64,000 nt of DNA from Argopecten irradians (taxonomy: Eukaryota > Mollusca > Bivalvia > Pectinida > Pectinidae): contig NC_091134.1 of NCBI RefSeq assembly GCF_041381155.1, forward strand, positions 38,461,338-38,525,337, read 5' to 3'. The notes beneath the pieces were generated by a model that worked only from the letters and a program-made list of their open reading frames with translations, had not been told where the DNA came from and did no database searches. This document shows, in pieces, positions 49,158 to 64,000 of this stretch. The position numbers were made by a program, and so were the translations under genes. The number at the start of each line of letters is the position of its first letter. The stretch's first letter is position 1.

Positions 49158-50165
49158 GCCAGGTATGTACCTGTGCCTCATAGGAACGGATTTACATTTA
49201 CATAGTGGATTATCTCCCTTGATGATAAACGTTCTACTGACCTCAAATGTTTATACATTTATTTCCTCATTGGTACAAATTAACATTTACCTTGCTTTCC
49301 CACTTTGCAATATTGTCGCTATTGGCAGTTATAAGAGCATGACTAACCACTGTTTATTATGGCATCATTGTTATAGTAATATCATCCACTCAAGTCCTGA
49401 TTTCTAAAATTAGAAAATACAGTATGAATATTTTGAGTTTAGAATTAAATGGTGTCTTTCATTTTCCATAACAGTAAAAATCGTCTCAACTTGATTGCAG
49501 CCCTAAATGTTTTCAACAATAATAAATATATATATATTAATGCATATGAAAATATAAGCATACCTTGTTAATGCTTTGAAAAATAACTCCAAAACATTTT
49601 TAATTTCCACAATTGCTGAGTATAGTCATACATAAGAAAATACCACTTCCTGCATTAGTTGTTAACTGTAAATCAACATATTTTTTGCATGCAATTGAAT
49701 AACTGTATCCATTTTATGTATCCAATTGTACGAATTCATGAAAATAATTACACTAGGACTATTCTGTCTTTGCATATTACAGAGTTAGCTCCCTTGCGGT
49801 AGGTACCGATATTGTTACATCATTCTTTTGTGAGCGCAATTCTAGTTGTTTTCTCAAAAAATTATGACGTTACGCTTGCAAACACAATCAATACCTACTT
49901 GCAACAGATATATTTGTAATATACAAATACAGAATAAAACGTTTGTAGGTCATTTTCCCTGATTTGTTCATTTTTTATTTTGATAATTAAAAACCTGCAG
50001 CAATAGGTTGACAGTAGTACAAAAACTACAAAAAAAATTAAACAAATACAACTATAGCATATATATATACTGCTATACATTTATACATATAAAGACATCT
50101 TTGTATTAAACTACAAAAACTGTTACTAATAAAGAGTGAACCTCATAAACTTGTTTTTACACTTA
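49158..50165. other. Flank and 3' UTR of the 50-63 kb gene
   Basis: The minus-strand 3' UTR starts at 50165. A poly(A) signal AATAAA on that strand (plus 49974-49979) lies about 190 bp past the stop, giving a short UTR. The remaining sequence to 49.16 kb shows no gene. Confidence 0.5.
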
Positions 50166-53100
50166 CTACCAAATTATTGTCTCTGAAGATTGTACTCTTT
50201 GTAGTTTTTGTTTTCCTTCTTGCTGGACTTGAGATGAGTCTTGGTCGGCTATAGAGTCAATATCAGTCTCTAGTATCTCAGAATCACTTTGTACTTCAGT
50301 TTCTCTATTTACACTTGGCAGGTTTCTTATTTTGCTTTGATTTGGAGGACAATGTTCCTGTAAAATTTCTGTCCCAGGCTTAACACCAGTTTCTGTTTTA
50401 ACAACTTGTGAAATTGGCTTTGTTGCTTTATTAGAAGAACATTGTGATTGCTGAACAGGATTACTTTTAATGTCTTTATCTTTGGTTGGAGGTTTGGCAG
50501 ATATGCGATCACGAAAGTTTTGTAATTTCCGTGGACTCTGAGTAAGCACTGTGAGAGAACATGGTACTAAGGTCTGCTGTGGACCCGGAGCTGAGGGATG
50601 GGCAACACTGGCAAGTGGACAGGAAGTAAGAACAGGATTCTCTGGAGCTGAGGAACGGACTGCCCCCACATGTAGACAGGAATTTTGGACAGGTTTATAA
50701 GGAGCACAAGGATGGACAACTCCAACAGGTTTATCAGGAACAGTATTTCTACCAGTAGGTAGGTCAGGGTTCTGCGTAGCTTGTCTTTGATGAGCGAGCC
50801 AATTAGGAGAACAAGATATAGATGGATTTCTTATATGGCCAATTTTATGTGGTGGGTTATAGTGTGTTTTACCCTTAGCACACTCTGAAGAGAAGACTGA
50901 AGTTGAAATTCCACAGGAAGAAGGTTTCAATCCATCTTTATCTTGCTGCATAGTTTTTCCAACACTGGGGTTACTTGAAGGATGGTATGTTGCGATGTTT
51001 TTTCTGGATGAACTCTTCAATGTTTCGTCGCTACTGGTTGACTTTGTTGGCCCTGTAACGAGTGACCCCTGTGATAGTTCATTACAGTCCTGTTTATGTA
51101 CACAAACAGGTGACTTTGACACTATAGGATGTAAGTGTTGAGTGTTGTTAAATGTCTTTTTATCATGATGAAAGATGTTTTCATTCACAGAATTACTTCT
51201 AAATTTCTCCATACCAAAGTCACTGGAATGTTTGTCTGATAAACAGTCAGAATGGTGTCCCTTACTGAGGTGTGTATGGATTTCTCCTTTCATATATTGT
51301 TCATGATTCTGCGAGATTGGCTTTTCAGTATCTGTCATGGGTTTCCCCTTTGATTTGCTATGGAATTTGGTATGTTTCTCTACCTGTGATGGTTCTGACG
51401 CTGCGATGGGTTTCTCTACCTGTGGTGTTTCAGATTTACCTTGGAATGTTGTAAAATTCTCTACCTCTGATTTTTCTGTTCTGCTATTGGATGAAGCAAG
51501 TTTCTCCACATGTGGTGTCTCTGACTTGCTATGAGATGTCATAGGTTTCTCTATCTGTGATGTCTCAGATTGACCATTGTCTTTAGCGGGTGTCTCTACC
51601 AGTGACATGTTACCAGATTCCATATCTCTCGACAGGTTTAGTTCCTCTAGTGTAGGGCAGCTGTCCATTGCAGTTACAGTTCCTTGTCTAAGTGTTTTCC
51701 GTCGTCTGCCACGCCTGATAGTTACGTTGGGGCTTATTTCCATATCAGGTTCTCTTTGTATGTGACACCCAGGAGAGTCTCTCTGATTCCCTATACTTGT
51801 GTAATCCGATACTGTACAGTAGACTGAAGAAGGGACAGGCAAGTTTGTAAATACCTCCTCAGGTGCCGCATAAACAGGCAGGTCAAAGTGTTGCCCGATC
51901 TCTGAAGGCTTGATTTTTTGCAGGTCTACATAACCTGGAGAGAGGACATTGTCTTTGTGGACAGTGTTAGTTTTGTCAGCTTGGTTGTCCTGTGTTGAGG
52001 TCACTGTGTCTGTAATGATGTTTGTAATATTGTCCATCTTCATGTACTCGGGAGATACAATCCCTTCACTAGAGACCGTAGCAGACTGACTTTGCTTCTT
52101 CTGTGTGGAGGGCACTGTGTTTGTGACATTATTTTTAAAACTATCCATCTCCATGTACCCAGGGGACACAACTCCATCACTAGAGACCATGTCAGTTTTG
52201 CTTTCCTTAACTTGTGTTGAGACAATTGACCCTGTGATAGTGTTTTTGATACTGTTCATCTCCATGTACCCAGGGGACACAACTCCGTCACTTGAGACCA
52301 TGTCAGTTTTGCTTTCCTTATCTTGTGTTGAGACAATAGACCCTGTGATAGTGTTTTTGATACTGTCCATCTCCATGTACCCAGGGGACACAACTTCTTC
52401 AAGAGGCTCTGTACTAGAAATTTGTTTTGTCTTCTCTTCTTCAATGCTGCTATTCTCTAATTCAAATGTGTCTGTTGTGGTTGTAATACATGTAGTATTA
52501 ACCTCACTTTTCTTTAGAAAGTCTAGAGTTGTGTAACCATCGCCCATGTTTAAACTTTCTGTCTTGATTTTACTGCTGCTATGGCCAAGGTCCCTTTGTT
52601 CTACATGTGATCCCATCGTGTTATATTTGTTGTTGCCTGTCCCTTGTAGAAGCGTAACTTTGGAAACACGTGAGGGAGCAGCGTATGGTTTAGCTGTCAC
52701 AGCCCGGCACCACCCCATTCTACCATTCTGTATGCCCGTGGCTGCAAACGGGTGTTCTGTTGAGTATGGTACTGCATAAATATTATCTAAACATGGTGTG
52801 ACTGGTTGCTCTGTTGATTTTCTAGCTGTTGCAAAATTTTCAGTATATTTGACATCGTCCCTTTTTGTAATATCGGGTCTTTCGTTAGCATTGTCTTTGT
52901 GAGAAATATTGGTGAATTGTGCCGAGAAAGTCATTGGAAACTCTGGAGATTTTTCGATATCTGGACACAAGGACTCCTCTGGAGGTGGTGGTAGGTCTGA
53001 GGTTGTATAGTCAAGAAGCATGGACGGTAACTCTGGAGGAGGGGGTAGGGGTAAATCTTCATCACTCTCCATGACAGAACACAAATTAACGTTGTTGTCA

Positions 53101-56100
53101 TCTGTAAGAGGAGGAACAGTGACATATCCAGGATCAGACTCCACAGTGTTAACACTAATGGAGTCCAGGGAGGCATAAACGTTCCTGTGACCAGGATCAG
53201 ACATTGAGGATCTGTTAGTGTAGTAATCTGATATAGGTTTGAAATCTGAATCTCCAGACCGGTCCGATCCAATACTGACCGAGTCTGGTGCTGACCGTGG
53301 GCAGATAACACTGTAACCTGAATTTGAATCCACAGAGGAACAATAATTAACCAATCCATAATGAGGCTTTGGAGGAACTGGCGGAGGTGCTAACATTTTT
53401 TTGGTTGGTTCCAAAGTTTTCTTGTTTTGAGTTTTACGTGGCAGAGCATAAACAACAGATCTGGGTAGAGGAGGAAGTTTAGGGTGATCTTCATCATCAG
53501 TGATATCTGATTTCAGAGAAGAGGTATCACTGTCTGTAACCCATGGTAATGGCATCACTGAGTATGGATGTATCAGTCTGAAATAGAATGGTGGAGCTAA
53601 GTGACAAAATCAAAACTTTAAAGTTATTAAATTTCAAAAGTTTTTCATATTAATTTTCAAAAGTTATAAAAGTTTTTTATGAAGATAAGCTTCAAAAGTT
53701 TATCAAATCCAGTAATTAAGCTTCAAAAGTTTATCATATCAAGTTAAATAGTTTCATTTTTTTAAAAAATAAACAGGATAAAGTCAGGAAAATGTTATGT
53801 CATAATTAAATGGTATGAGAGGTTAGCCATTTAATTTTTGGATGAAAGGAGTTTCATTGTATGATGAAACCAGATTAAACTTGGGAGAATCCAATCTTTG
53901 AAATGTATGACTGTGGAATTAAACTTAGTGCTATAGATTGGCAAGATATATATGTCGTGTAGTGTGTAGGATAGGAAGAAGATACCTGCCACTAGCCGTG
54001 GAGCTGACATCCTCGTTACTGCTGAATGATGGAACACGGACAGAGTTCAGAGGAATCTGGTACTCACTCAGCTCCTGTTAAACATGTAATGGCATCGATC
54101 ATATTCATATATGTACTCAATACCATGTAATATATATATTTGTACTTTTACAAGTCTCCTTCATTGTATACCGGTAACAACAGACCTTGGAGATCATCCA
54201 ATTAAATTAATTGAACTGTTTACTGTTAAATACTTAAGTTTTGCATAATTTCGAAAAAGACCTCAAACACCAATAATTCTATAAAACATAATTACAAGAT
54301 GTAAGATATAGTTAAAAGTCCATGATCACAAATCATTGTACAATGTATATGTGATTATATTAAACTAATGAAAATGTGAAATATGTACATAAAGTGAAAA
54401 TAAAATGATTTAAAGTAATATTTGAAACGAGATAAATATTTGTCTTATAAAGTTTATTGATACATTGTATATTTATCTTCTAAATGAAATTTAGTTTCAC
54501 CACAAAATTGTTTTCACCGATACAAGTTATCAATTTCAAGCAAAAAATTTCAATCAAGTGGAAAAATATTTCTATTTTATGAATCAAACCAGAAAAAAAG
54601 AACACCTTTTATAAATAATTATAGAACTTAAGCATCCTTACAAATTATTACAAGTTGAATTCTGTATAAATGGAAAATATTATAAGTATTAAACGGTACA
54701 AATATGACTCTATTACTGCGCGGGACGCTATACCGTTGACAAACGTACTTGTCTAGCCGCGCCGTGATCAGTGCAGCTGACACAGGTAGCTGATACAGTG
54801 ACTGGTGTGATTGTGCTATATTTAGATCGTGTGATTTGTAGTATCCGAGCATGCGGGATTACCGGAAGCGCAGTGACACTCGTGAATGGAGATTTTATAT
54901 ATATCACCATCAACGTATATAGTAGATCTAAGCCCCTGGTATCACACAAAATTACTTTCTTAGTAACCGATTGCTTGTGCCAAAGCCTTTCTGTTTTTTG
55001 AAAAACAAGTCTGTAACCCATAGAAAATAACTTTCAAACAGAAATTCAATAGACAGACAATAAAGATTGAGAAAAAACAGGTGGGTTTTTGTCAAGAAAA
55101 CACACGTTAATTATTGTTTTATTACAAGTAAATCATATATTCAAATATAACTAATGTATGAATAAATATTGTTTAACAGCGCTGCTTATATCGCTATTTT
55201 TTTTCCTTCTATTTTGCCTCATATAATCATGGTTGCATTTACAGGTAGCACATCAGAAAAAATATATAATTTACCCGGTACTGAAAATATTTTAACTTGC
55301 ATGGTATTGTGGAAATGTCATGAGAGGATTATTTCCAAACAGGATGATCTTAATGATATATAAATTCAACATACATATTTCGTTTTTCGGTGCACAGTTG
55401 AGTCGACATCTACCGACGTACTCTCGTGGACGTGGCTGTCCCTTTGATCAATCGGTCAGTTAGGTATAATTGACAGACATGCGAAGTGTATGGCCCCTCC
55501 CCCGTTACTATAGGTAAATATCATTGGCTGGCTAGCTCTAACCACACGTGTCAGTAATACAGGTGATTGACAAGGCGGCGTGGTTTCTGAACCGACTGGT
55601 GACCCATGCCAGCTATTTAGAAATTTTTTTGGACATGTTTCTAAAATAACTGGCATTTTGTATGATTTTTAAAATCATGGTTCACCAGAAAATCTACTAG
55701 ATTCTACTAGAATTTGTGTTTAGACTACAGATATACGTCATACAATATGTTATTACTACCAAGCACTGACGGCTGCGATGTCTGAAAAGCTACCGTAAGG
55801 AAAAGAAATCTTCCTTGTAATTCATAGAATAACTCCTTACATCCACAGCATTAATAACAATATATCATGTAAGTTTATCATTAGTGTATGCTTTTTTGGT
55901 ACAAAATTTCCTCGGCATGAAAATCCTCTGGTACGAAAACTCCCGTATTCGTTGACAGATCCTGATGCGATAAACTGTTTTTCTCCATCTTTTGACATCC
56001 GCGTCTCATAATCATTAATCCGGTTAATTCGCTCATTTGTTGTATGTCATACCGTTTGTGTATAGATCAATTAGTCGTAGTCTTGTTTTTTCGTCAGTTC

Positions 56101-59100
56101 GTTGTCCGTTGGAGTAGAGTTTACCGCGAACATGTGAGTGTCAGCTTACGCGTTTGTATTGCGTTGTTCTATATTTAAACTATGCGGCTAGTACACCACT
56201 TTCCTGCGCAGTGCTCAAGGTACCTGTATCAGCCGCACTGATCACGGCGCGGCAAGACAAGTTTGTCAACGGTATAGTGTCCCGCGTGGTAAAAGTTTAC
56301 TGCGATAAACAGGTGCTTGTTCAAACTTACCAGAATAGGTGACACCTGGCTGTTTTGTATTGTTCTGACTTTCGGGGAAGCAAATGTACTAACTGGTCTA
56401 CGGACTGGCCTCTGTAAAATTAACATAGACAAGATAGGTGAAAACCCCAAAATCCCTCACAGCAGGGTATAGTATACATAGAAAAACACAGAACAAAACT
56501 TATCTAGAAACTGGTTATTCAGAGTTAGAGAGCATAGAAAAAAATGCTGTTTATTTTTGTGCGCGAGGGTTCTGATGACAGTTGGCCTAGCCATTCGAAA
56601 CATGTAAACCAAATAAATAAATCCTTTTGTACAGAGTCCTTGGTGTTGATGCTTTCCTATTTCCATTTGTTATTCACTATTGTCTATGGAGTGCTGTGGA
56701 ATACTTTTTGTATCCACCTTGGATTCCTCCACCGAATCTTCATCAACCAGCAACTTCAGAACTTTGGATACCTCCGCCATCCCCTTTATTTACATAATTT
56801 GAATACATAATAAAAAGTATCCTTAGAACCACCAAATACTACATCTTAAACAGGGTGTTCATGTTATTTAAGTGTACGTTCAACTGTTGATGATAATGAA
56901 ATTTAATTTTATCACTTTACTTACAACAGGAGTACAATTTTCCTTATCCTGATTCTGCAGTTTAGGGGGTGTTTTCCCAAATGTTGAGAAAGGAGAATCC
57001 AGAAATCCTCCATTTTCTACAGAGAGTCGCTTTGACTTGGGTCTCTTTATGGCAGTAAGGTGTGAGAATTCATCAGGTTCATCAAACACATTAAAGTTTA
57101 CTGTATTCTGTGAGACTTGTGGACTGTGGATTTCTTCTGAACCTCGGTAATATTTCTGTGGATTTAAAAATGTATGCAATGATAAGAAATACAGATACCA
57201 TATACTGTAGATCATGAAATATGGTGAATACTTGATATCAAAGTCACATGTTCTAACAGAACTTTTCCAGTATTAATTAATATGTGTACTTCCTGACTAA
57301 AAGATAATAATTACAGATTTCTAAATATATTTAACCATTATTGTTATGTTTATAATCAATATTTGTACAAGGCTGTAACAAGGCATCTTTACAATAGAAA
57401 TGCATGTCAAATGGATCTTGAAATTAAATTTCGTTAAAGCTAATAAAACTATTAAAAGCAAACCTGTGGTAATTTCCTTTTATTCCAAAGCTTCATAAAT
57501 GTCTTGAAGTAAGCTTTCTTCTTTGGAGATGATATCTGATGGTAAATCTTGTGTTTCTAAAGAAAAAACAGTTACACATATTACACAAAGTCTGTCAGAA
57601 TGATCTCCCTTTAATAAACCTTTTATTGTTTCTAAGACTGCCAGACTTTTCTCCCTTAAATACTTAAAATCTTTAAACAGCGATTAAAAAAATAATAAAG
57701 AAAAATTGACAAAATATACTGAAAATGAAGATAATTGATCTCATAGTATCACATCATGAAATATGTGTAATGGTGTAGATTTAATCATTATTATTCTATT
57801 TCCTTAAAGTTTGAGAATGGTCTGTCATACCTCTTCCTCTATCCAGGTGTGAAATTCTATTTGCTTGTTTAGGAAGTCATCCATAGATATCTTGTCTGTA
57901 AAACAAAGAAAAAGAATCAAAACTATTGTCACTTCACACAAAATGCATATTACTATTATCTAATATTACATGCAATACATATACTAAAAAGAAATATGTT
58001 TACATGGGAAAAAATTCCAATTACATTGTAAATCAGGATTGATTGAATGAATTAATATATAGAAACAAAATATCCCAGAGAAATATTGCTGTCCTCCACT
58101 AAAAAAAATATATAAAGTAGCAAACTTCTTCCATAATAGTCTTTGGTAAATAGTAGTAGAAATCTTTTAGTTATCAAAATCCAAGATGGCCACCTGTCAA
58201 CCAGATAGGCTAACATGAAATAAAATGACATTGTTTATTTATCATCTAAAGAGATTTTCCATAAAGACTATTCCTGGAAACAAGATGTTTCAAAGAAACA
58301 CTTAACACATTTTTATGGTGGTATATTAAAGGCCCATTACTTTAGTGAAACAATTTTTTTCTTCTTAAAAACATCAATAATATACGAAAATGTATATTAA
58401 TGGCTTAAGAGGATGTTATAACATCAACCAAATGCCGGGTTCCCTGCGTAAATTATGTTAACAGTGAAAATTCATGTTGCTGTTTTGCTGTCTGGCGCAG
58501 TGATAATCAACTGACATTCCGTAATTAAGACAAAGGCAGGAAACATAAAACCATCAGCAATATGAAAATTAGCATTAAATTTATTTCAGTTAAATTGTTA
58601 AGAAGGTGATGGAAAGTGTAGTATTTACGGTAAGTTAATAACTTTTGTGACTCTATACAATTATCAATTTTGTTTTACATTCCCATTTTAAAAATTAAAA
58701 GCCGTTTCGGAAAGGTAGTGGGCCTTTAAACTTTACTGAATAAGCCGAGGATCATAGTATATGAAGATTTATTTTACATTTTCTTCCTACATTTTAATTC
58801 TTTCTTATAAGATGTTCATACTTTGTTCCTTCTTTTTCCTGATGAGCTCATGTCGTTGTTTCTCCCTACGTGTGAGTCGTCGTGCAAGTGTACGTTGTGT
58901 GTGACTGGCCTGGTTCATGTTCTCCACAGAGGAATCTACATAGGTAATATGGATAAAAACGTTAGAATGCAAGTCTTAAATATACATAAATAAAATAGAC
59001 AAAATGTGGTCAAAATATAGATTTTGTAAGCTTTTTTAACAATTTTAATTTGATCACTACTGACACACAATGTTTAAACAATCAGTCTGTATACCTGCAT

Positions 59101-62100
59101 AATACCACAAGTAACAAGTACATGGACTGTAATTCATTCTCTGTATACCTGCATAATACCACAAGTAACAAGTACATGGACTGTAATTCATTCTCTTTTC
59201 TCCCATACTTGACAGGGTTATCCCGCAGTTCCTTAGGAAAAGATAACTCTTTCTCCCATACTTTACAGGGATATCCTGTGGTTGCTAGTGAAAAGATAAC
59301 TCTATCTTACACAGTGGGTGTAGGACAGCTCACACGCGCTAGACAATAATGTGACGTCATCAATACATGCGGCATAGCTGCAGCGTGCATTGTCGATGAC
59401 ATCATCAACTTTGACGCATAACGACATTCCTGTGATAATTATGTGATAAAAACCTGGAATGCAATAGAAATTTCATATTTTTTCAAATAAGTATGGGAAA
59501 AAAAGAATTAAACATGGGTCTGTCAAGTGGACAAGGATATCTCAACCTATTTGAAAGATTTTGCCGTCAATCATTGGGTTAACATGCCAAAATCTTTCAA
59601 TCGGGTTGAGATATCCCTGTCCGCTTGACTGACCCATGTAAGATTCTATTAGTCTTTTACCGGAGTAGAGAAAATACAGCTTACACGCGCTAGACTATGA
59701 CGTGACGTCATCAATACATGTGGTGAGTATTGTCTGCGACATCATTAATTTTGACGCACTGTGACATTCCTTTGATTGAGGCGTTTTTGGTAATGACTAA
59801 TGTTTCTAAAAACTGCGTTTTCATAATGCTTCGTGAAAGTATGGGAGAAAAATAATCAGACATGGGTCTATCAATTCAAGTGGACAGGCATATCTCAACC
59901 CTTGTGAAAGATATTGGCCACCAACCCTCGGCAAGCCTTGGGCTGACCAGCCAAAATCTTTCACTTAGGTTGAGATATCCCTGTCCACTAGACAGACCCA
60001 TGTAAGATTCTATTAGTCTTCTGAGGTTTGGATGCTCAAATTTACCTGTATCTTCTTCACCACTTGGCTGTGAGTCTGAAGAACTGCACGCCATTTCTTC
60101 ATCACTGTACTGATATTGTAAAGTCTTTTTCGATTTTGTTGGAGGCTTACTTGGAGAGCCATCTTTCTTCTTCTTGTGGTATTTTGGAGATTGTGACTGT
60201 TCATCTGATACTGACAAAACTGTTCTCTTCTTATTCCTGTAAAAAACATAATTTTTTCCATTTTTATTTGATAAATTTCATAAAACTCTTTAAAATTTAC
60301 CAGCAAATGTTGCTTTGTTGGAGAACCTAATGGGATTATAATGTTATCATACAAATATTTTGTAAAAAGTAGTCCCTCAAAGCATCCCCTTTCTGTAAGA
60401 GTAATGCTAATCACTAATGGGATTTATCAGACATGGTTTTGCATCTATGAAAAATAAATGAACAATTGACAAAAATGGGCAACTACTAAAATTAATACAT
60501 TTTTAATAATTCAAGGTGTCATATTTCATCCCCCATTAAAGGCATTTTATTAGATTCCAAGGTGGAAATAGATGTTTTTAAATACCAAGTCGCTGATTTC
60601 TGCATTTCATGTCTAACTACATATATATATATAAGTAAAAAAGAACCGTGTCCATGTGAAAATAGACAATGAACAAGGTGATTATTTAAGAAGGAATTTC
60701 ATCAGATTTTTAGACAATTGTTTTATAATCTGGCAATCAGATAAAGATGTAAATACATTATTTCAAGAACTTAATAAGCTACATCCTGATATACAGTACA
60801 CAATGGATTCTAGTACAGTAAAACTACCGTTTTTGGATATATCTGTACATATTAAAAATGGTGAAATCACTACTGACTTGTATTGTAAGCCGACAGATTC
60901 GCATAACTATCTTGATTTTTATTCAAATCATGCAAGGCATGTAAAGCTAAATATCCCCTTTAATTTAGCGTCCCGTCTAATCACAATCGTAAGTGATAAA
61001 ACTGTTTTAGCTAAACGCTTAGATAACATCGCTATTGATATTATAAAAAACAGCATTATCCACAAGAAGTTATAGATTATGGAGTTGAAAGAGCAAAAAA
61101 AGAAGAACCTATTCATTTAAGGAAACCGAATAAAGTGGAATCCAAAAGCAATATAATACCTTTTGTCAGTACTTTTAATCCAAACAACTACAATATTTTT
61201 CTAATTGTAAAAGGTTGTGAAGATTACATGAAAAATAGCGACAGAATGAAATTGATTTTATCTAACAAGAAAATAATAAATTGCAAGCGTCAACCTAAAA
61301 ACCTTAAACGTATTTTATGTGCGTCAAAATTTGATTCGAAAATTCAAGATACTTCTGTCACTAAATGTATGCAAATGCGTTGCAAAACATGTGATATTAT
61401 TATAGAGTGTAAAAATTATACATTCAAAAATGGTTTTAATTTCAAAATTAAAACTTATATGAATTGTACATCCAAAAATGTCATATATGCACTTATTTGT
61501 AGCAAATGCTCAGATTTTTATATTGGTCAGACAGGAATGGAATTGAGAAAGAGAGTTACATTACACCGACAACAAACCAAAACAGACCATCTCAGATATT
61601 TAACAGTAAACGAACATTGTCATATGTGTGCTCATGATAACTAATATTTTACCAATATATCAAATGTCTAATTCAGATCTTTTAAAAAGAGAAAATAAAG
61701 AAATGTATTTCATTCAACTTATGAAACCTGTGTTAAATTCAGAACGGGACAAAGGAACTTCATATTAGTTTTTATTTTGTCCTCATGTTTTTGTTAGTTT
61801 CTTCCAGAACCATTCACAATATCTTTATGTACCATGTCATGACGTAATCTTACTATGACGTCATTGTACTATGACGTCATGTTTTACAAATAAAAGAATT
61901 CAAACCCCTGAAGACCGGCATGAGCTGAGAAAGCGCTAGGGAGGAAAAAACTGTTTTATAGTTGTGTTTTCTTTTTATGTTATATAGCTGGCCTCTTATA
62001 AGGACCCTCTTCCAATTTCTGTTGAAGTCTTATTTGGATTGTAATAGGAATGTAGTGGCCAGACCGGGATTTGAATCTGGGACCTCCGAATTTCGAAGAC

Positions 62101-62921
62101 CAGCTGAATGCTATACCACTGCATCTGCTTAAGTTATACCTGGTCGCCAATGATCGACACAGTCCAATCCCTTTCTATGGCAGTATATACTCTATGTAAT
62201 GAGATTGCACTCTCCCCTCCCTTTCCTCTCCTTAAATATTCCCCTCTTAGTTTTCACTTTATCGGGCAACTGGTCGTGATGGTTTTCTATTCGAGTAGAG
62301 TGTACATTATGAGATTGTATACACGATACCTGCTTAAATTTAGTCAAAATTTTCTAACAATTAATCTTGCAATAGATGTAGCAGATATTGCATGTCTTGA
62401 ATTAACATCGGAACCCTTCAGATTAGCTTATAAAATTATGCAAGAATCATCTGAACATCTAAAATTAATTTGAAAAATGTTATCACTCCTTCTTTGAGTA
62501 AGAAACTCGTAAAAGTTATATATATATATGCATTATATATATCATTTTCTGCTGATTTTATTTGGCATAAACGTCGTACAAATACTTATTTAAATTTAAT
62601 ATTGACTTTAAAGTTTTACTCGGTTACAGTAATGACGATTTACGATCTGGGGGTGGGGTATGCGCATGCTAATATACACAGTCAATAGGTCACAGGCTTA
62701 CTGTACCTACATGTACAGATTATTTACACCAAGTTACAGAGTAACAGAGCAAAAATTTAAATAGGCCGACAGGGCACCTGTTCAGTTCATTCAAAATACG
62801 TCTTTGGTTGTAGAATGAACGATGCACGACTAAATGTGTTTATTGTTGTGACTATGTTAACGATGTATTCTTTCAATATATTTCATTAGTAATTTAGTAT
62901 TTTGTACCTGAAAATATCCAT
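50166..62921 (-). CDS. Uncharacterised tyrosine-motif-rich docking-type protein
   Basis: Nine phase-consistent exons: 62908-62921, 60046-60236, 58822-58935, 57831-57895, 57464-57556, 56925-57155, 56331-56411, 53986-54074, 50166-53577, giving 1,429 residues and a stop. Exon 1 supplies only MDIF plus two bases. Residues 5-68 are Lys/Ser-rich with nuclear-localisation-like basic runs. Residues 69-159 form a basic helical region (LARRLTRREKQRHELIRKKK; ISMDDFLNKQIEFHTWIEEE; FKTFMKLWNKRKLPQKYY) that looks conserved but that I cannot place. The last exon (from residue 293) is disordered and dense in Tyr motifs: YALP, YAVP and YAAP, five 37-38-residue repeats with SPGYMEM or variants (Tyr near 693, 730, 767, 804, 842), and an SH3-type PPPVPPKP near 357. 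YMxM motifs in IRS and Gab adaptors bind PI3-kinase SH2 domains, so a docking role is inferred. No PH, PTB or catalytic domain is visible. Confidence 0.8.
51920..52400 (-). repeat. Coding tandem repeat, five 111-bp units with YMEM-type motifs
   Basis: Tyr codons of the repeats fall at plus 52377-52379, 52266-52268, 52155-52157, 52044-52046 and 51930-51932. The spacing is 111 bp three times, then 114 bp. The first two units are almost identical in protein (SPGYMEMDSIKNTITGS), the third and fourth are progressively diverged, and the fifth becomes SPGYVDLQK. The motif SP-G/E-Y-M-x-M survives in the first four although the flanks change, which suggests selection on the Tyr motif. Confidence 0.9.
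53580..53780. repeat. Short TTCAAAAGTTT motif repeats
   Basis: TTCAAAAGTTT or TTCAAAAGTTA recurs five times within about 120 bp just upstream of the last exon of the docking-type gene, in the intron. Spacing is irregular. It looks like a local slippage product; it lies right next to the acceptor at 53578. Confidence 0.5.
54711..56294. mobile_element. 1.6-kb element with roughly 80-bp terminal inverted repeats
   Basis: GGGACGCTATACCGTTGACA and TAGCCGCGCCGTGATCAGTG at the left (54711-54800) are mirrored at the right (56215-56294, with GGTATAGTGTCCCGCG and CACTGATCACGGCGCGGC). The element lies in the intron between the 56331-56411 and 53986-54074 exons. Its interior holds a 17-bp hairpin at 55606-55656 (TGCCAGCTATTTAGAAA) and a CCAAT and GC-box stretch near 55.5 kb. 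No transposase frame is visible, so it is non-autonomous or decayed. Confidence 0.65.
58326..58729. mobile_element. MITE with TTAA target duplication (type 2)
   Basis: AGGCCCATTACTTT at the left and AAAGGTAGTGGGCCT at the right are inverted, each bordered by TTAA. The target choice is the same as the 28.3-kb MITE but the ends are unrelated, so this is a second family. It is 404 bp long, non-coding, and lies in an intron of the docking-type gene. Confidence 0.8.
59085..59200 (+). repeat. 56-bp tandem duplication
   Basis: A segment with CTGTATACCTGCATAATACC and AAGTACATGGACTG occurs twice back to back without visible differences. This indicates a very recent duplication or an assembly artefact. 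It is intronic in the docking-type gene. Confidence 0.85.
59326..60020. repeat. Two tandem copies of an inverted-repeat MITE
   Basis: Copies start at 59326 and 59677, 351 bp apart. Each runs from CAGCT(C/T)ACACGCGCTAGAC through GTGACGTCATCAATACATG to arms CATGGGTCT..GTGGACA and TGTCC..AGACCCATG, then GTAAGATTCTATTAGTCTT. A third copy lies at 10.7-11.0 kb. The second copy ends only about 25 bp from the exon donor at 60045, so the element sits against a splice site. Confidence 0.8.
60640..61990 (+). mobile_element. Penelope-like element, 5'-truncated, with RT tail and GIY-YIG endonuclease
   Basis: The first part (to 61075) encodes the reverse transcriptase palm and thumb end: RFLDNCFIIW, LHPDIQYTMD, LPFLDISVHI and DLYCKPTDSHNYL. 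The second (to 61644) encodes the linker and a GIY-YIG nuclease: MRCKTCDIIIECKNYTF, VIYALICSKCSDFYIGQTG, LRKRVTLHRQQ. A further stretch gives KRENKEMYFIQLMKPVLNSE. The three pieces lie in different frames, so the copy is inactive. RT followed by GIY-YIG is diagnostic of Penelope-like elements. The coding sequence begins inside RT. It sits antisense in intron 1 of the docking-type gene. Confidence 0.85.
61905..61941 (+). ncRNA. Minimal hammerhead ribozyme-like motif at the 3' end of the Penelope-like element
   Basis: The core CUGAAGA (61908-61914; CUGANGA is the invariant pattern) and GAAA (61929-61932) flank a stem II made of CGGC, loop AUGA and GCUG. CCC (61905-61907) pairs with GGG (61939-61941) as stem I. 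UA just before GGG provides the U-H cleavage site. The helix III position holds the self-complementary GCGC. Penelope-like elements are known to carry minimal hammerheads with very short helix III that may work as dimers. One mismatch lies at the base of stem II. Activity is untested. Confidence 0.6.
62044..62130 (-). repeat. tRNA-derived SINE head
   Basis: On the minus strand an A-box-like TGGTATAGCATTCAGC is followed, about 30 bp on, by a B-box-like AGATTCAAATCCCGG. The acceptor-stem ends do not pair as in a working tRNA. It lies just downstream of the Penelope-like element. A SINE or tRNA relic is the best reading. Confidence 0.5.
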
Positions 62922-63426
62922 GAAGCACTTGCTCTGATTTTCAAAACAAACCGAATTTCAATTTGACCGCCTCAGCTGTAAACTGAAAGTAATTGCTTAG
63001 ACGTTTGAATTCTACACAATTTTAGCGTTGATCATACAAGTGTCTAAATCACAATGATTTATGGAAAATCATTTATTTTACTAATCGTTTATCCGATATA
63101 AACGGAACGCAGTGTCTACAGAATAAGCTATATTAATGATAATTATGAGATTGATAAATATTATTTAGTGTCTAATTACCATTAAATTCAAGTTTAAAGT
63201 AAAAAAATCATCGAAAATGGAATAATAGCATTTAAATACCATGAACTAGTTTAAAAGTTTATGACTGATGGCTATTCTTAAAAATGTATTAACCAGGTAA
63301 ACACATCGTCGTATTTGGGATAAAGTTGCCGACTCTCTCATCAAGTGATTTTACGGTGTACTGATTCATTAAGTGAACATAAACTGAAGATTTTGTGGTG
63401 AACATACTTATACTGGTCTTATTGAC
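62922..63426. promoter_or_regulatory. Head-to-head intergenic region, probable bidirectional promoter
   Basis: Only 505 bp separates the start codon of the docking-type gene (minus, 62921) from that of the HAD phosphatase (plus, 63427). Both promoters and 5' leaders must lie here or overlap the first exons. No TATA box with good context is visible. Confidence 0.5.
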
Positions 63427-64000
63427 ATGAAGCTCCATATTTTCCCTCGATCATCTGTAGGTCTAGTAAGGAAATGTTGGGAGTGCATGATACAGTGCAA
63501 ATCCTTGCCTGACCATACGTTTGGTCAAGCACGTCCACTGATGAATGACACTTCAAGTGTAAAGCGACTAACAGTCAATAATCTGGAACCGTTCTTACAG
63601 GCTTATGATACATTCATGTTAGACTGTGATGGAACACTATATGGTACTGATCATGTGACCGAGATTCCAAATGTGCCAGAGGCAATATCCAAACTAAGAA
63701 ATATTGGCAAGCATCTGTTATTTGTCACTAATAATAGCATGCATTCAAATGAACGTTATGTAAGCAAATTCAAAGAGGTTGGATTTGATGCAGATGAATC
63801 TGACGTTTTTGGTGTGGCCAATGCATCTGCGTTGTATTTACGAGACATTGCTAAAGTAGATGGGAAGGTTTATGTCATTGGTGGGCAAGGTGTGAAACAA
63901 GAACTTGACAAACACCAACTAGAAAATTTTGGAGCAGGCCCTGATCCAGACCAGGCATCATGGGACCCGAAAAAACTACTTCAAATGGAATTTAAGGAGA
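63427..64000 (+). CDS. HAD phosphatase, phosphoglycolate/pyridoxal-phosphate phosphatase family (5' part)
   Basis: The frame is open from the ATG to the window end (191 codons) and preceded by an in-frame TGA. HAD motif I is MLDCDGTLYG, with the nucleophile Asp near residue 66 and the acid Asp near 68. Motif II is the TNNS at 101-104 (LLFVTNNSMHSNERY). VFGVANASALYL and VYVIGGQGVKQEL follow as in PGP and PDXP (chronophin) proteins. Family enzymes hydrolyse 2-phosphoglycolate, glycerol-3-phosphate or pyridoxal-5-phosphate; the substrate cannot be told without the cap domain, which is cut off here. About 45 residues precede the usual family start, and MNDTSSVKRL at 63541 is an alternative start. 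The basic, Cys-containing extension could be a targeting sequence. This open frame continues beyond the window. Confidence 0.85.
   Translation, partial: MKLHIFPRSSVGLVRKCWECMIQCKSLPDHTFGQARPLMNDTSSVKRLTVNNLEPFLQAYDTFMLDCDGTLYGTDHVTEIPNVPEAISKLRNIGKHLLFVTNNSMHSNERYVSKFKEVGFDADESDVFGVANASALYLRDIAKVDGKVYVIGGQGVKQELDKHQLENFGAGPDPDQASWDPKKLLQMEFKE

Follow-up and report, generated by a model that had tools for sequence, protein, structure and literature searches.

A predicted phosphotyrosine docking scaffold without a Pfam-detectable PH or PTB domain in Argopecten irradians

Introduction

This article deals with a single gene on the minus strand of a 64,000-nucleotide window of the Argopecten irradians genome (RefSeq assembly GCF_041381155.1, contig NC_091134.1, positions 38,461,338 to 38,525,337; coordinates given below without a prefix are positions in this window), which probably encodes a scaffold that docks p85 and SH2 proteins of the Crk/Nck/RasGAP type through phosphotyrosine. 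The gene model, assembled from sequence signals, runs from 62921 to 50166 and comprises nine exons that together encode 1,429 residues, with a single stop codon at the end. Its last exon (exon 9) encodes a tail of 1,136 residues, in which tyrosines have a strong and specific preference for certain residues at position +3. An earlier note on this DNA had proposed a docking protein from a first look at the letters, and that proposal is strengthened here, as the preference extends beyond the tandem repeat and no PH or PTB domain was found by Pfam.

We start with the tyrosine motifs of the tail, including the tandem array, and then compare the gene with known docking systems. Afterward, we weigh the alternatives together with the N-terminal part and the gene model, and we end with what the docking reading would mean.

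Tyrosine motifs of the tail

Most of the 28 tyrosines of the exon 9 product are found in its first 592 residues (24 tyrosines), leaving four for the last 544. At position +3, 20 of the 28 are followed by Leu, Ile, Val, Met, Phe, or Pro, where 8.3 would be expected, and none of 20,000 shuffles gave as many. When the tandem array is reduced to one of its four copies, 17 of the remaining 25 tyrosines still conform (base rate 0.30, p=9.3e-5). The specificity test was performed on this repeat-collapsed tail, with 19 residue types as anchor (Trp, occurring fewer than five times, was omitted) and with 14 offsets from Tyr. Only Tyr as anchor and only offset +3 reached p<0.001; the next-best values were p=0.017 for offset +6 and p=0.023 with Pro as the anchor. 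The preference is absent from exons 1 to 8 (2/8 tyrosines).

Individual motifs were compared with shuffles as well. YxxM occurs six times in the tail (0.70 expected, 1/20,000 shuffles), and YMxM and PGY are found four and five times where shuffling predicts 0.016 and 0.11, respectively. The YAxP sites reported earlier are indeed present, with four copies against 0.074 expected (0/5,000 shuffles), and YxxP sites of all kinds taken together show no clear enrichment (5 vs 2.4, 1,733/20,000 shuffles). In three of the four YAxP sites, the tyrosine is preceded by Ile or Val. The SH3-ligand-like stretch PPPVPPKP was also recovered (residues 357–364), and LPPLPR provides a second one; PxxP in general is enriched (17 vs 8.5, 20/5,000 shuffles), and the stricter pattern P-x-x-P-x-K/R is not (2 vs 0.9). 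The tail features are the following.

53439..53450, minus strand: YALP (residue 336), Abl/Crk-type site by motif
53364..53387, minus strand: PPPVPPKP, SH3-ligand-like by motif
52767..52778, minus strand: YAVP (residue 560), by motif
52674..52685, minus strand: YAAP (residue 591), by motif
51948..52394, minus strand: four tandem units of 37 residues (the fourth 38), each with YMxM, by Tandem Repeats Finder
51921..51947, minus strand: start of a fifth, degenerate unit with SPGYVDL
51861..51872, minus strand: YAAP (residue 862), by motif

As yardsticks for the +3 test, we used single open frames of docking-type genes from the same genome. The DOK-like frame passes (7/12, p=0.013), a frame about 5 kb from a PTB match on C4 gives 6/14 (p=0.17), and a frame with an Abl-type domain (606 residues of the frame) gives 5/13 (p=0.31). 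The signal in exon 9 is stronger than that of any yardstick frame, including the two discussed further below. Shuffles, other anchors, and other offsets served as the only negative controls, two other long frames in the window being too poor in tyrosine for this purpose (3 and 1).

Disorder of the tail is weakly supported: from residue 294 onward, FoldIndex gives negative values for 817 of 1,086 windows, and the value for the whole tail is just −0.014. The more than 1,100 disordered residues claimed earlier hold for length and are weakly backed for disorder.

The tandem YMxM array

Tandem Repeats Finder detects one tandem array (51988-52395, period 111 bp, 3.7 copies, 81% matches). Its repeat tyrosines are residues 693, 730, 767, 804, and 842. 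Five units had been described as SP-G-Y-M-E-M-type repeats; the number stands, and only three cores read SPGYMEM, the others being SPEYMKM and SPGYVDL, so that four of the five are YMxM. Copies 1 and 2 differ at 5/111 nucleotides, and copy 4 matches the other copies at 72–74 of 111.

In all six pairs of copies, the nonsynonymous rate (dN) is lower than the synonymous rate (dS). We also compared the 12-residue core with the 25-residue linker by Fisher test in five of the six pairs, the pair 1–2 being too alike (1/12 core and 1/25 linker residues differ). In each of these five pairs, the core has diverged to a smaller extent than the linker; the pairs share copies and are not independent. Copies 1 and 3 give p=0.013 for residues and p=0.0025 for bases, copies 2 and 3 give p=0.073 and p=0.011, and the three pairs with copy 4, where one codon was dropped at the best base identity, show no significant difference.

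Homology searches and known docking systems

The exon 9 product matched no Pfam family (E<=1), and residues 1–346 gave chance matches only (E<=10; DUF6161 at E 0.3 and 0.64, HTH_19 at E 0.29, all well short of the family cut-offs). Neither scan returned a PH, PTB, SH3, SH2, DBB, or NYAP match, in agreement with the earlier note on the absence of PH and PTB. NCBIfam returned a single chance match (E 0.041), the best phmmer match among PDB sequences had E 0.45, and viral and prokaryote contigs, searched with the exon 9 product alone, yielded no relative. Within the genome itself, all seven matches of the N-terminal query (E<=10) were the gene's own exons, and the exon 9 query (E<=1) found no paralogue apart from a scrap of 29 residues on C3. 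In short, the gene appears to be a single-copy, multi-exon gene, with exon joins predicted from sequence signals. The scrap (C3:61853491-61853568) covers 78 bp of exon 9 at 91% identity (29 residues at 79%) and sits in a repeated region; it looks as if a fragment of exon 9 had been captured by a repeat.

The IRS and Gab adaptors are among the closest known parallels. Gab proteins have a tail with YxxM and proline-rich SH3 ligands and are anchored by an N-terminal PH domain; the tail found here is alike in YxxM and proline-rich stretches, whereas the N-terminal PH domain was not found by Pfam. The IRS family shares a long tail with repeated YMxM/YxxM, some of which follow a Gly and lie close to Ser-Pro, and the exon 9 tail likewise carries several (the six YxxM, including the four YMxM). 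It differs from IRS in that the N-terminal PH and PTB domains are absent by Pfam.

A displaced IRS gene was considered and rejected because C15 carries an IRS-like gene of its own, in which both PTB and YMxM occur. A PTB family search of the genome gave 11 match rows at nine places, none in the exon 9 gene. The DNA of all nine places was inspected, and by our own recognition four of them are IRS-like (C15), DOK-like (C11), FRS2-like (C1), and talin-like (C13, a label taken from sequence about 9 kb downstream). At the IRS-like locus, the PTB match (C15:21583640-21583801) is followed by three open frames in the same orientation, 4.3 to 8.4 kb downstream of it, with nine YxxM including four YMxM in total, and we infer that PTB and tail form one gene, an IRS. 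Candidate partners are encoded as well: p85 inter-SH2 exons lie at C6:5.168 Mb (above the cut-off) and an F_actin_bind domain, which we take to be that of Abl, at C4:39.647 Mb.

DOK proteins share YAxP-type sites with the tail, and their PH and PTB domains were not found in the exon 9 gene. The N-terminal SH3 domain of p130Cas (BCAR1) was not found either, and YxxP overall lacks the clear enrichment that likeness to Cas would suggest; most tyrosine sites of the tail are not YxxP, which sets it apart from the DOK/p130Cas class. The DBB domain of BCAP/Dof was not matched by Pfam in the exon 9 gene, the one DBB match of the genome being at C5:19.276 Mb.

The homology motif of NYAP1/2 and Myo16/NYAP3 consists of YxxM plus a proline-rich stretch; YxxM and proline-rich stretches occur in the tail too, which we compared with these proteins by features rather than by direct alignment. 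They differ in that the exon 9 gene has no Pfam NYAP match and carries a tandem YMxM array. A NYAP_N search of the whole genome gave no match, and its controls were also silent, which leaves that negative without a positive control. According to the excerpt of PMC7464383 at hand, NYAP1/2 carry a YxxM homology motif and no other regions N-terminal to it, which on our own reading makes them PH/PTB-free. On that excerpt, a YxxM adaptor without a PH/PTB-type N-terminal domain is not unprecedented, and the earlier statement that PH or PTB domains anchor the known YMxM adaptors was too broad.

Published binding data give the motifs possible partners. The parts of PMC3514216 available list IRS-1 pYMPM as a PI3-kinase site with a literature half-maximal inhibitory dose (ID50) of 0.7–1.1 uM, and report that DOK1 pYAVPP binds Crk and DOK1 pYAEP binds RasGAP and Nck1. 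Three of the four YAxP sites fit the Abl consensus I/V/L-Y-x-x-P/F, as given in the excerpt of PMC4532999. For IRS-1, whose tail is disordered, the tyrosines of the YXXM sites are reported to help drive condensation of the protein (PMC9240053, in excerpt), and by analogy condensation is a possible property of the exon 9 tail too.

Proposed mechanism

In a docking protein of this kind, tyrosine kinases would phosphorylate the tyrosine-rich half of the tail (residues ~298–885). The tandem SPGYMEM units would then recruit PI3-kinase through the SH2 domains of p85, and the YAxP sites, mostly fitting the Abl substrate preference, would recruit SH2 domains of the Crk/Nck/RasGAP type. The other Y-x-x-L/I/V sites may serve further SH2 proteins, while PPPVPPKP and LPPLPR would bind SH3 domains. 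Anchoring, the task of PH/PTB in other docking proteins, would fall to the basic, helix-prone N-terminal part, or else this part would give the protein a nuclear or cytoskeletal location.

Points against and alternative readings

Several observations weigh against the docking reading. YMxM is one duplicated unit, and once the array is collapsed, the enrichment of both YxxM (3 vs 0.51, 255/20,000 shuffles) and YMxM (1 vs 0.01, 200/20,000) is no more than modest. The +3 test is no clean classifier and misses some docking proteins, since the main tail frame of the IRS-like gene fails it (10/27, p=0.12) and the FRS2-like frame is borderline (7/15, p=0.099). Conservation of the tyrosines was judged within one gene, and the comparison of copies is a weak stand-in for orthologues. 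A nuclear protein could equally well have the basic stretches and S/T-P sites seen in the N-terminal part. In the parts of PMC3514216 available, the array of that study itself missed the IRS-1 pYMPM–PI3-kinase pair; position +1 of the physiological Crk SH2 consensus is Asp, and in the sites described here it is Ala.

The alternative that survives best, although we consider it unlikely, is a nuclear or cell-cycle protein in which the N-terminal part sets the role and the tyrosine motifs of the tail are secondary. The N-terminal part (residues 1–293), which the earlier note had called basic and helical with Lys-rich stretches, contains KKKK at 26 and KRPKSKR at 196, and by Chou–Fasman prediction alone it has segments prone to form helices, of which the longest falls between 82 and 157. 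It further holds one KEN (exon 6) and nine S/T-P sites against 3.8 by shuffle (103/20,000 shuffles as many), and it shares nothing of the +3 preference. The N-terminal part appears to differ in kind from the tail (basic, helix-prone, and S/T-P-rich) and could anchor, dimerize, or localize the protein. Residues 107–163 may resemble a helical segment of RNA-processing-type proteins, an impression to which the searches lent no support. A nuclear role, however, would leave the +3 signal and the YAxP sites unexplained; S/T-P sites are scarce in the tail (15 vs 21.8 expected), and a three-letter motif such as KEN carries little weight alone. A wider version of the docking reading would join both halves, with an unrecognized animal docking family whose N-terminal module (basic, S/T-P-rich, KEN-bearing, and nuclear/cell-cycle-like) stands in place of PH/PTB and couples PI3-kinase-/Crk-type tyrosine signaling to the cell cycle or to a location that is nuclear or mitotic. 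We hold this version to be quite doubtful.

It is also rather improbable that two genes have been joined on paper, with exons 1–6 or 1–8 belonging to one transcript and the tyrosine-rich tail to another that starts downstream (e.g., from an ATG close to where exon 9 begins). The features of the model are as follows, all on the minus strand.

62908..62921, minus strand: exon 1, proposed coding, 14 nucleotides (ATG GAT ATT TTC AG, MDIFR start), GT donor, phase fits exon 2
60046..60236, minus strand: exon 2, basic with the KKKK stretch; GT-AG, phase, codon score
58822..58935, minus strand: exon 3, basic and helix-prone (RTLARRLTRREKQRHELIRKKKEQ); GT-AG, phase, codon score
57831..57895, minus strand: exon 4, helix-prone (ISMDDFLNKQIEFHTWIEEE); GT-AG, phase
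57464..57556, minus strand: exon 5, helix-prone (KKKAYFKTFMKLWNKRKLP); GT-AG, phase
56925..57155, minus strand: exon 6, SP/TP sites, KRPKSKR, KEN; GT-AG, phase, codon score
56331..56411, minus strand: exon 7; GT-AG, phase, codon score
53986..54074, minus strand: exon 8; GT-AG, phase, codon score
50166..53577, minus strand: exon 9 (last), tyrosine-motif tail and stop; open frame, CAG acceptor, tyrosine statistics
49974..49979, minus strand: AATAAA, candidate polyadenylation signal about 190 nucleotides beyond the stop

Exon 9 lies in an open frame of 1,147 codons that ends at 50166. GT-AG ends and a matching phase are present at each of the eight junctions, and no inner stop interrupts the frame; this speaks against two genes, as does exon 8, whose codon score is equalled by 0/937 intron windows. 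Splice sites were picked by eye, and the exon chain is a biased test for that reason. The scores were trained on exon 9 (itself therefore outside the test), exon 1 was left unscored, and the comparison set consisted of sliding, overlapping, stop-free intron windows. No window equalled exon 2 (0/101) or exon 6 (0/25), and exons 3 and 7 have fair support (equalled by 20/577 and 24/1,062). The scores of exons 4 (307/1,513 windows as high) and 5 (357/826) are not distinctive, which leaves splice sites and phase as the basis for both, and exon 1 is the weakest part of the model. These undistinguished scores favor a split, together with the difference in composition between the N-terminal part and the tail and the fact that the model comes from sequence signals, not RNA. 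Should two genes be involved, the docking reading of exon 9 would stay and its pairing with the N-terminal part would fall.

Low-constraint expansion of a repeat in a disordered tail, free of any signaling function, strikes us as very improbable: the near-identical copies 1 and 2 would suit it, yet the +3 signal survives collapse of the array and dN stays below dS between copies. Least probable of all are AP-2-type sorting signals in place of SH2 ligands, since, for all that 15 of the 28 tyrosines have Leu, Ile, Val, or Met at +3, four sites are YAxP (about 50-fold enriched) with a Pro at +3 that AP-2, to our knowledge, does not accept, and no transmembrane-like stretch was noticed in the translation, read without a predictor.

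Introns and neighborhood

Two introns harbor mobile-element-like sequence. Intron 1 contains a repeat element copy (60659-61986, plus strand), with many copies of about 1.33 kb genome-wide at 95–97% identity (73 match rows from the best 40 of 430 candidates). It has a GIY-YIG-like region just under the Pfam cut-off (20.3 vs 22.6 bits), and we presume it to be Penelope-like. Intron 7 holds an element of about 1.6 kb (54710-56295) with terminal inverted repeats of about 80 nucleotides. Related copies occur genome-wide, the longest other copies among the matches listed being 83–91% identical (102 match rows from the best 40 of 87 candidates); the element looks DNA-transposon-like, and no transposase frame was noticed in it. 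Nested direct and inverted repeats, resembling a miniature inverted-repeat transposable element, lie at 59325-60020, with one arm starting about 30 nucleotides past the exon 2 donor.

Head-to-head with the gene stands a HAD-type hydrolase (63388-63999, plus strand; Hydrolase_6, E 4.1e-24), presumably phosphoglycolate-phosphatase-like. About 470 bp separate the beginning of its open frame from the start codon proposed here, and because the two starts are head-to-head at this distance, both genes may share a promoter.

Implications

If the docking reading holds, Argopecten irradians would have a second route to PI3-kinase beside its IRS-like gene, one that is independent of PH/PTB anchoring, and Abl/Crk-type and p85-type sites would be combined on one chain. 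The gene would then offer a test case for the targeting of docking proteins that lack the usual domains, and its array a test of whether YMxM arrays evolve by tandem duplication.

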